64,000 nucleotides of DNA, taken from contig NZ_JAXMIH010000006.1 of assembly GCF_034366625.1 (NCBI RefSeq), positions 930,001-994,000 on the forward strand, given 5' to 3'. Position 1 is the first letter of the stretch. Every line of letters begins with the position of its first letter. Shown piece by piece: positions 14,910 through 18,320 of the stretch. The notes beneath the pieces were generated by a model. That model was not told where the DNA came from, did no database searches, and was given only the letters and a program-made list of their open reading frames with translations. Made by a program: the position numbers and the translations under genes. The stretch is from Prosthecobacter sp. (GTDB lineage Bacteria; Verrucomicrobiota; Verrucomicrobiia; Verrucomicrobiales; Verrucomicrobiaceae).

Positions 14910-15479
14910 CTACACCAAGTCCGCGCGTGTGAACGCCGCGACAACTGGGTAGCCCGCGCTTTCGATGTTTTCGCGACCGCCTTCGTCGCGATCAACGAGG
15001 ATGAGTGCGAAAGCGATCTTGCCGCCTTCATCTTGAATCGCCTCGATAGCCTTCAAGGTCGATCCGCCAGTGGTGACCACGTCATCGACGACGACGACGG
15101 GTTCGTCGGGAGTGAAATTCCCCTCGATGCGTTTGCCGCGGCCATGGCCTTTGGGCTCCTTGCGCACGACAAAGGCTTGCACCGGCTTTGCATCGCCCGC
15201 CATGCTGGAACTCATCGCCACCGCAAGCGTGATCGGGTCCGCGCCCATCGTCAGACCGCCGAGCGAGCCGATGCTGAGACCGCGTTTCGCCTCTTCCTGG
15301 CGCAGCAGATCATGCAACACGCGCCCCACGAGCACCGCGCCGCGCGAATCGAGCGTGGTGACACGGCAATCGACATACAGATCACTCTCCTTGCCCGAGG
15401 CGAGGGTGAATTTGCCGGTCTTAACGGACTTGGTTCTGAGAAGCTGGCGGAGTTCTTCGCGGTCTTGCTGGAGGGACAT
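14910..15479 (-). CDS. pyrE: Orotate phosphoribosyltransferase
   Basis: A 189-aa enzyme that joins orotate and PRPP to give orotidine 5'-phosphate in de novo pyrimidine synthesis. The PRPP-binding motif is clear (VVVVDDVVTTGGSTLKAIEA), preceded by the N-terminal TGKFTLASGKESDLYVDCR signature and the catalytic flexible loop region VVRKEPKGHGRGKRIEG. Length is in the usual 180-215 range. It stands alone on the minus strand, divergent from the secreted Lon-like protease gene with 109 bases between them. Confidence 0.95.
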   Translation of the reverse strand: MSLQQDREELRQLLRTKSVKTGKFTLASGKESDLYVDCRVTTLDSRGAVLVGRVLHDLLRQEEAKRGLSIGSLGGLTMGADPITLAVAMSSSMAGDAKPVQAFVVRKEPKGHGRGKRIEGNFTPDEPVVVVDDVVTTGGSTLKAIEAIQDEGGKIAFALILVDRDEGGRENIESAGYPVVAAFTRADLV

Positions 15480-15551: not shown

Positions 15552-15581
15552 TTGACTCACGGAATCGTGCCTCGCTATTTT
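15552..15581 (+). promoter_or_regulatory. Sigma-70-type promoter immediately before the Lon-like protease gene
   Basis: TTGACT (15552-15557), 18 bases, TATTTT (15576-15581). The expected start of transcription is about 15588, one base before the ATG at 15589, again implying a leaderless message. Confidence 0.5.
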
Positions 15582-15588
15582 CTATGAC

Positions 15589-17673
15589 ATGAAGGTCCAA
15601 TTCTTTCTCGGCTGCCTGTTTCTTTTGCCGATCTTTCAACTCTCTGCACTGACCCCGTCGTGGTACCAGCATCCAGTGGACGAACTGCGGCTTTGGAAAA
15701 GCCAGACGGTGACTGCAGGAGGCATTTACTCTTCACCCACAGAAAAAATCGTGGTGAATCCCGCAATGGCGGCGGAGAGACCGCAGTTCTTGGAGCTGGT
15801 CTTTGAAAAGGAGCCTCACATCACCGCCACCACGTTCGAGGTGGCGGCGGGCGGCAGGCTTATTTTCCGAAATTGCCGGCTTAACCGCGTCTGTCTCATC
15901 TGTCAGCCCGGCGGGGAGATCCGGTTGGAAGGATGCGCAATGATGCAGGTTTATTTTTCCGCCAACAATGGCTATGGCGGCACGGCCAAGCCGGCGCCGA
16001 AAATTGTGCTGGAAGAGTCTGCCGTGCATTTCTCCGCGATCGATTCTCCCATGATGACGGGGCTGACGGCGAAGAACTGCAAGTTCATCAGCTGTGAGTT
16101 GAATGCCACGGAAAAGGATGGCGCAAACACGGTATCGAGCATCAGCCAGTGTTATCTTGCAGAATGCAAGCTGCATGCGGCGGAAGTTCTCATGTGCAGC
16201 AGCAACTGCTGGTTTTATCACTGCATCTGCCTTGGCGAATTTCCTTCAGACCTCGGCTCGTATCTCCCAAAGCCGGTGCTGGTTCAGTTGGAATGGAACG
16301 GCTTGAATCCGCCCAGCCTCCCCACCCAGGCTGGAAAGGTACACTTCCAAGGCCTGAAGAGCATCGAAGCATTGCTGGGGCTGGCACGCGCAGCTCCCGA
16401 AGCGGCTTCGTCTGGAGCGCCGGGCAGACACCTCATGGAATTTCTTACTTTGGTGGATGCGGAGGGTAAAAAAGCGAGCGCGGTGCAAGCGAGTCGGCCG
16501 CCATCCCGCACGCCAACCGAAACTGCCATTACTTCCTTTGTGTCTGCGAGCGGAGCCTTCAAAAGTCGCCAGACAAACGTGAACGGCCTGTTGATCGCAC
16601 AACTTGCCGGAGGCGAAGCCGGGCAAGTGACACGCATGAGCCTGACCGCACTGCCTTCTCTAGGCGGTTCGTCTTCAACATTGAAGTTCAATCAGTCCGT
16701 CGGGAAGGACATGGAGAAGGCGCTTAATGAAGTCAGCAAGTTCTCGCAACTGCGGCACAGCGGTTGGCCGGCGGGACATCAGATGGAGATCGGTTTCGAG
16801 GACAAGTATGTTGCCAAAGACGGTCCCTCCGCTGCCGTTGCCTGTGCTTTGCTGCTGGAAGCGGCAATCACCGGCAAGAAGTGGGATCCGGTCTTTGCGG
16901 TGACGGGTGACATGAACGCGGACGGCAGCGTGCAGCCCATCGGCGGTGTGCAGGCGAAGATTCGTGGGGCGACCAAGGGTGCCTGCAAAATCGTGGGAGT
17001 ACCGGTGAAGAATGAAAAGGCGGTGGCAGACATTCTGGTGATGGATGGGCCGGCACCCTTGGTGGGAATCACCATCTTCGGCATCAAGACCTTTGAAGAC
17101 GCCATGCTGCTTTCTGATCCTGAGCGGCCGCAAGCCCTGCAGAACGCGCTCACCGACTTTGACAACATGCGCACGGTGATGATGCGCGATCCGCGGCAGA
17201 TCGTGCCGTTGCTGCGCACGCCGCAGGCCGCGCAACGCCTGCAGACGCTGCTGGCCGCCGCCCCCAACTGCTACTCAGCCAAATACCTGCTGCTCTACCT
17301 ACAAGGGCGCGCCCCGCGCACGCTTTCCATCGGCGGTTCCATTGAGGCGGCACAAAACAGCGCCGATTCCATCGTGGCGGCCATTGACCATGACGTGGAC
17401 ACCAACATGTCCAGCCTCAAAGGCGACGAACTGGGCTCCAGCTTGAACAAACTGCGCAACCTGCGTCCTCTGCTGGACCAGCGTGTGTGGCCGTATGTGG
17501 ACGGCCTCATTTCGTACGGCGAAGTCATTCGCGGCTCAGTACTGAATCCGGTGCGTTCCGGTGCGCGCTATTCCGATTTGGTCACCAAGGCAAACTTGGC
17601 GGCTGGGAGCGCCAAGGCAGCCTACACCAAGTTGCTCGGTGATGTGCAGGTGCGCGAGGAACTCGGACTTTAG
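15589..17673 (+). CDS. Exported protein with Lon-type (S16) serine protease domain
   Basis: A 694-aa protein with a signal peptide (MKVQFFLGCLFLLPIFQLSAL). Residues about 70-240 carry short repeated beta-strand segments rich in Cys, Asn and Gly (RLIFRNCRLNRVCLICQPGG, KNCKFISCELN), resembling a parallel beta-helix. Residues about 325-510 match the Lon proteolytic domain: catalytic Ser414 in KDGPSAAVACALL and Lys457 in PIGGVQAKIRGA. The 43-residue spacing equals that of E. coli Lon (Ser679/Lys722). There is no AAA+ ATPase module, so unfolding power would have to come from elsewhere or the substrate is already unfolded. An alpha-helical tail completes the protein. Likely periplasmic or surface-exposed. 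Function unknown. Confidence 0.85.
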   Translation: MKVQFFLGCLFLLPIFQLSALTPSWYQHPVDELRLWKSQTVTAGGIYSSPTEKIVVNPAMAAERPQFLELVFEKEPHITATTFEVAAGGRLIFRNCRLNRVCLICQPGGEIRLEGCAMMQVYFSANNGYGGTAKPAPKIVLEESAVHFSAIDSPMMTGLTAKNCKFISCELNATEKDGANTVSSISQCYLAECKLHAAEVLMCSSNCWFYHCICLGEFPSDLGSYLPKPVLVQLEWNGLNPPSLPTQAGKVHFQGLKSIEALLGLARAAPEAASSGAPGRHLMEFLTLVDAEGKKASAVQASRPPSRTPTETAITSFVSASGAFKSRQTNVNGLLIAQLAGGEAGQVTRMSLTALPSLGGSSSTLKFNQSVGKDMEKALNEVSKFSQLRHSGWPAGHQMEIGFEDKYVAKDGPSAAVACALLLEAAITGKKWDPVFAVTGDMNADGSVQPIGGVQAKIRGATKGACKIVGVPVKNEKAVADILVMDGPAPLVGITIFGIKTFEDAMLLSDPERPQALQNALTDFDNMRTVMMRDPRQIVPLLRTPQAAQRLQTLLAAAPNCYSAKYLLLYLQGRAPRTLSIGGSIEAAQNSADSIVAAIDHDVDTNMSSLKGDELGSSLNKLRNLRPLLDQRVWPYVDGLISYGEVIRGSVLNPVRSGARYSDLVTKANLAAGSAKAAYTKLLGDVQVREELGL

Positions 17674-18320
17674 GATTGGACCGCCACCGATTCCTTTGAC
17701 GCTTCCGAGTCGGCTTCGGCTGTGTTGTCGCCTTCCTCTTTCGGTTCTTCAGTCGGGACGACACCATCCACCGTCAGCGTGATGCCCACGGCTTTCGCCG
17801 CCTCGGCGGCAGGACCGCCGAAAGCAAGAAGAGTGGCGACTTCGTCCTGCATCTGGGTGATTTCGTCGAGCTTCAGCTCGGGATCGCGCACGATGAAGAT
17901 TTCGCCGGTCTTTCTATTTTCGTAGAAGAGCATCTTCGCGCCATCGACTTCCTTCTCGGCGGTCTGCACGAGCTGGCGTTTGCGTTCGAGCATGAGGGCC
18001 AGGATGTAGCGCGCGTTTTCGGTGCGGGGGTCGCCCTCCTCGATGAAACGCTGCAGCAGGCTCTGCGCGCTTTCCTTCGGGGCGATCTCGGGCCTGGCCT
18101 CGACGAGGACTTTTTGATACACGGTCTTCCAGGAGGCCACGGGCTGGCGCTGCTCGACCTCCTGCGGCCAGGCTTCATTGCAGACATCGCGGCGGACGTA
18201 GCCGTTTTCCTGCGGATCAAAGTAGATGGCGGTGTGGAAGCTCTCGCCGTCCTCGAAAGGACGGCCGGTGAGGGCGCATTCGTGGGCGCGGCTGCGGATG
18301 GACCAGTTCTGCTGCATCAA
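17670..18320 (-). CDS. Conserved hypothetical protein with an N-terminal CxxTGRPF-like segment
   Basis: A 216-aa soluble protein. The N-terminal 55 residues (HECALTGRPFEDGESFHTAIYF ... YVRRDVCNEAW) hold two Cys and two His and look like a small metal-binding or folded treble-clef-like module; the rest is helical and acidic (ENARYILALMLERKRQLVQ, ELKLDEITQMQDEVATLLAFGG) with a Glu-rich tail. I recognise no named family. Its stop overlaps the stop of the Lon-like gene by four bases, convergently. It lies 36 bases downstream of the LptF/LptG-like gene and may share its transcript. Confidence 0.75.
   Translation of the reverse strand: MMQQNWSIRSRAHECALTGRPFEDGESFHTAIYFDPQENGYVRRDVCNEAWPQEVEQRQPVASWKTVYQKVLVEARPEIAPKESAQSLLQRFIEEGDPRTENARYILALMLERKRQLVQTAEKEVDGAKMLFYENRKTGEIFIVRDPELKLDEITQMQDEVATLLAFGGPAAEAAKAVGITLTVDGVVPTEEPKEEGDNTAEADSEASKESVAVQS

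Follow-up and report, generated by a model that had tools for sequence, protein, structure and literature searches.

A predicted exported Lon-type (S16) protease of Prosthecobacter with a beta-helix front half and no ATPase motor

Introduction

Lon is the textbook ATP-driven protease, and S16 domains are also found in other proteins such as SepM, which carries a PDZ domain beside S16. At a functional level, SepM of Streptococcus cleaves a pheromone and is active outside the cytosol (PMC11197336). YlbL of Bacillus subtilis is likewise a Lon-domain protease without ATPase; it bears a PDZ domain, and its target outside the cytosol is an inhibitor of division (PMC6051672). With these two, exported S16 proteases lacking an ATPase are a kind already known, and a preliminary description of the present locus, which took Lon domains to be cytosolic with few exceptions, makes such forms out to be rarer than they are. 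A further case is MtaLonC, a Lon-like protein without ATPase activity that degrades unfolded substrates without ATP; the portion of that study available to us mentions a possible non-functional AAA-like domain in LonC and does not describe the protein as exported (PMC3391209). In a 2008 survey, the Lon_C domain occurred alone or with LON-AAA, Sigma54, Mg-chelatase or PDZ partners, among which beta-helix and lectin domains do not figure (PMC2605481).

Here we describe a gene for a 694-amino-acid protein in a 64,000-nucleotide stretch of Prosthecobacter sp. DNA, the whole of which is referred to as the window. The protein has in common with YlbL and SepM an S16 Ser-Lys domain without AAA+; however, it belongs to another phylum and has, instead of PDZ, a predicted beta-helix and a C-terminal helical domain. 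The coordinates of its parts and of the flanking genes are given in Table 1.

Table 1. Features of the protease locus (positions in the window)
Feature	Position	Strand	Basis
Complete protease gene, 694 aa; predicted exported serine protease, S16 (Lon-like)	15589..17673	+	ORF, Pfam
Predicted signal peptide, from residue 1 up to about 21 (MKVQFFLGCLFLLPIFQLSAL)	15589..15651	+	own heuristic, not SignalP
Cys-rich parallel beta-helix, residues about 30-240	15676..16308	+	model, trustworthy to about residue 170
Linker, variable, low confidence, residues about 241-324	16309..16560	+	model
Lon-type (S16) protease domain, from about residue 325 to about 510	16561..17118	+	Pfam, PDB matches, model
Ser414 codon, putative catalytic	16828..16830	+	alignment with Lon, family conservation
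Lys457 codon, putative catalytic	16957..16959	+	alignment with Lon, family conservation
C-terminal helical domain, residues about 510-694, family-specific	17119..17670	+	model, profile searches
Phosphoribosyltransferase (pyrE-like), divergent neighbour, kept in genus	14910..15479	-	Pfam, synteny
Convergent neighbour, 4-base tail-to-tail overlap with protease gene, syntenic in close relatives	17670..18320	-	synteny

Results

A Lon-type protease domain without a motor

The only Pfam domain above its cut-off in the protein is Lon_C (residues 403-482, E 1.2e-12, 48.3 bits against a curated cut-off of 21.1 bits), and solved Lon domains in the PDB are matched by sequence at E 3.8e-11. Ser414 lies within KDGPSAAVAC and Lys457 within PIGGVQAKIRGA; the 43-residue spacing, noted in the preliminary description, can be read off the sequence, and both residues align with the motif positions of E. 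coli Lon and of solved Lon protease domains. Chance spacing of a Ser and a Lys is ruled out by the Lon_C profile and by the matches to PDB Lon structures. An AAA+ family (by Pfam) and a Walker A motif (GxxxxGK[ST]) were both absent from the 694-residue chain, in agreement with the proposed Lon-type domain without ATPase. No Pfam match to a PDZ (up to E 1) or a LON domain was found in the protein, and the SepM_fam_S16 model scored 15.1 bits, its cut-off being 200.

The S16 region failed in the full-length AlphaFold2 model, probably as a result of a shallow alignment. A second model, of residues 319-694 (pLDDT 81), shows an S16 fold followed by a helical domain. The loci collected by the genome search did not enter the modelling. 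The S16 part superimposes on B. subtilis LonBA (8dvh, Z 21.6, 170 residues, 2.1 A) and on E. coli Lon (Z 20.8), with Ser414 and Lys457 placed as in Lon, an agreement that is partly built in because the alignment behind this model held Lon domains from viral (phage) contigs; the sequence matches to Lon are independent of it. Taken together, these data make it very likely that the S16 domain is genuine. It shares the fold, the dyad and the KDGPSA motif with LonA and LonB; however, these carry AAA+ with Walker A, which the 694-residue protein lacks, and their extra domain precedes S16 whereas here it follows. LonC is Lon-like and without ATPase activity (PMC3391209), and the match to TTC1975 (LonC) is limited to the S16 region, the N-terminal half of our protein being modelled as a beta-helix.

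The dyad is intact in 84 of the 100 sequences collected (the window protein and 83 of the 99 others), and the surrounding motif is highly conserved. The exceptions fall mostly into a separate set of degenerate paralogues, whose presence in the family would suit a non-proteolytic scaffold, with an S16 fold kept solely for assembly or binding. Given the retention of Ser, Lys and motif in the window protein and in the bulk of its relatives, we regard such a scaffold as very improbable.

The protein is likely exported

The N-terminus, MKVQFFLGCLFLLPIFQLSAL, resembles a signal peptide according to our own heuristic (not SignalP), as the preliminary description had read it, and such a start is retained in orthologues and in more distant members. 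Leaving the degenerate set aside, 76 of 86 family members scored positive for signal-peptide or lipobox-like N-termini, as did 10 of the 12 degenerate ones, under a lax heuristic by which 16 of the 43 window genes also score as signal-bearing. The 10 members without a signal mostly resemble cases of wrong start choice or truncation. As the N-termini of the family are mostly signal peptides, lipoprotein signals or anchors, the 694-residue protein is likely carried out of the cytosol, judging from sequence.

A predicted beta-helix before and a helical domain after the protease domain

Cysteine makes up 5.5% of residues 22-240 versus 1.3% in the window genes, which bears out the Cys-rich N-terminal half of the preliminary description. 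AlphaFold2 models this half as a parallel beta-helix, to which we give medium confidence (for most of residues 30-170, pLDDT is about 60-83). Its structural matches are PL3 pectate lyases, tailspikes and pentapeptide-repeat proteins, with Z from 13.2 (best match, over 156 residues) down to about 10.5, so that model and fold matches agree on the beta-helix-like character first read from the sequence. PL3 pectate lyases and phage tailspikes share the fold at an identity of at most 15%, and Pfam returned no match on this half, pectate lyase family 3 included.

Residues from about 510 to the C-terminus form a separate conserved helical domain that had been overlooked in the preliminary description. 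In a sample of 288 genomes from the phylum, a profile of this domain found matches in 12, all within one order and only alongside the S16 domain of the protease family; in the window genome it recovered the protease gene only. Searched alone against the PDB, it gave weak matches (best E 0.0017), several of them to coiled-coil proteins.

Gene context

Within the genus the protease gene adjoins the divergent pyrE, and in the nearest relatives it is followed 3' by the convergent gene and then by an LptF/G-family gene. The gene is probably transcribed alone, because it lies between a divergent and a convergent neighbour. A promoter-like site at 15552-15581 does not exceed what chance would give. 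The convergent neighbour gave no match in a Pfam search, and neither it nor the pyrE-like gene is part of the protease system. No conserved operon partner or substrate gene was found, the neighbours varying beyond the genus.

A cytosolic Lon fragment or pseudogene is ruled out by (i) the intact reading frame, (ii) synteny in the genus and (iii) a separate canonical Lon (L001), the one other Lon of the window genome. The third Lon_C match of this genome, L003, reads as a ComM/YifB-like protein outside the protease family. A copy in another genome of the genus (G075:C17:70753-71593) has an in-frame TAG and appears broken.

An order-wide family with exchangeable N-terminal modules

A protein search gave matches in 149 of 289 genomes of the order, in some of them to canonical Lon solely. 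Full-length matches to a profile of S16 plus the C-terminal domain are confined to this one order of Verrucomicrobia, and the named close relatives are Verrucomicrobia, among them a Prosthecobacter, from which we take the order to be Verrucomicrobiales. In the sample from other classes of the phylum, S16 matches are short and mostly lie within Lon-sized frames. As an exception, one S16-like frame of another class (L087:1264-1809, + strand), partly N-masked, has a signal-peptide-like start and may, from its sequence, be a distant exported relative. No relatives were found among viral contigs and plasmids, and searches with Pfam and NCBIfam gave no model specific to the protease family. The open-access papers searched held no description of it, and nothing relevant emerged on exported Lon in Verrucomicrobia or on S16 with lectin; the family is apparently undescribed so far.

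The architecture of the window protein recurs in a beta-helix group of 21 rows within this order-wide family. Beside it stand a helical group (28 rows, degenerate copies included), a C-type lectin group (5 rows) and three others with 8, 6 and 2 rows, all without detectable sequence similarity to one another. Lectin_C (E 1.3e-12) and CBM96 (E 3.5e-23), both typical extracellular binding domains, were identified by Pfam in N-terminal modules. A different family of the order has the S16 unit fused to C-type lectin-like modules at L055, L056, L058, L060 and L064, the assignment resting on a Pfam match in L055 and L064 and on N-terminal similarity in the other three. At L125:500-2776 (+), a carbohydrate-binding module of family 96 precedes the S16 unit.

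A tree of the catalytic unit, which was quickly built with SH-aLRT support only and contains long branches, requires at least 12 changes of N-terminal state, the states being otherwise strongly clustered. The N-terminal module is absent in 20 of the 86 tree members, with the same S16 plus C-terminal unit. The preliminary description had suggested a self-processing or a specialised protease. Self-processing, in which S16 would cut its own chain and thereby release or mature the beta-helix, draws on the presence of both module and protease on one chain and on the variable, low-confidence linker between them. However, since many members have the same catalytic unit and no module, the beta-helix is no obligatory substrate, and the modules belong to unrelated groups; we therefore consider self-processing improbable.

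Seven syntenic orthologues share on average 88% identity in S16, 87% in the C-terminal domain and 35% in the N-terminal part. A front part that varies beside a constant catalytic unit is the pattern expected of a targeting or recognition part, which is how we would read it from these comparisons, although relaxed constraint could also lie behind the fast N-terminal change.

The missing modules of many members would also suit a general envelope quality-control protease for unfolded exported proteins, LonC-like or DegP-like, with the N-terminus as anchor or cap; MtaLonC degrades unfolded proteins without ATP (PMC3391209). However, we hold such a housekeeping role to be rather unlikely, because the patchy occurrence (with the Lon-only matches included in the count) and the fast-changing modules suggest specialised targets. 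A specialised protease, the other suggestion of the preliminary description, fits these data.

Dyad-less paralogues next to active copies

At 11 loci in eight genera, counted by genus code (L072, L073, L075, L077, L109, L117, L123, L124, L133, L136 and L145), a dyad-less paralogue lies directly upstream of a copy judged active by its dyad; at L075 and L077 the assignment of the upstream partner comes from the profile alone, without a reading of its dyad, and two pair partners are cut by contig ends. The paired genes overlap by 4 bases at 4 of the 11 loci. Two sets of degenerate copies could be linked to the active unit by profile comparison, with probabilities of 99.8 and 100%. It is possible, from this arrangement of genes, that active and dyad-less partners form heteromers. 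The window genome has no dyad-less partner gene. Some close relatives have, beside the beta-helix copy, a second dyad-bearing copy with only an anchor-like segment at its N-terminus. In the middle gene of a triple tandem (L054:9852-12101, - strand), the Ser is kept and an Arg occupies the position of Lys457.

Discussion

We consider it probable that the 694-residue protein, as a member of the Lon (S16) superfamily, is exported and acts as a Ser-Lys protease without ATP, its beta-helix perhaps serving for docking. Its most likely role is to work in the envelope or at the surface as a protease that needs no energy supply and is directed by the N-terminal module. With regard to proteolytic activity, ATP non-use, oligomeric state, docking, substrate and exact compartment, we infer the following course. 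The signal peptide would carry the protease out of the cytosol, where the beta-helix would dock it on a surface, a polysaccharide or a partner. Substrates of the S16 domain would be peptides or stretches of protein that are unfolded or flexible; Ser414 would be the nucleophile and Lys457 the general base. The C-terminal helical domain may stand in for AAA+ in a structural or gating capacity, and the enzyme would perhaps assemble into a ring as in Lon.

More tentatively, and with the balance still against it, the order may harbour an exported motor-less Lon family in which the S16 and helical domains form a constant unit, targeting modules are exchanged in front of it and, in several lineages, active and dead subunits from adjacent and at times overlapping genes form heteromers. 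Such a family would be an extracytoplasmic counterpart of the compartment proteases with active and inactive subunits. If it did move outside the cytosol with the protease domain, an own C-terminal domain and interchangeable binding modules and without a motor, it would show how such machines are rebuilt in places that lack ATP. It offers many natural architectures for comparison, and the pairs of active and dead copies would allow a direct test of heteromeric S16 assemblies.
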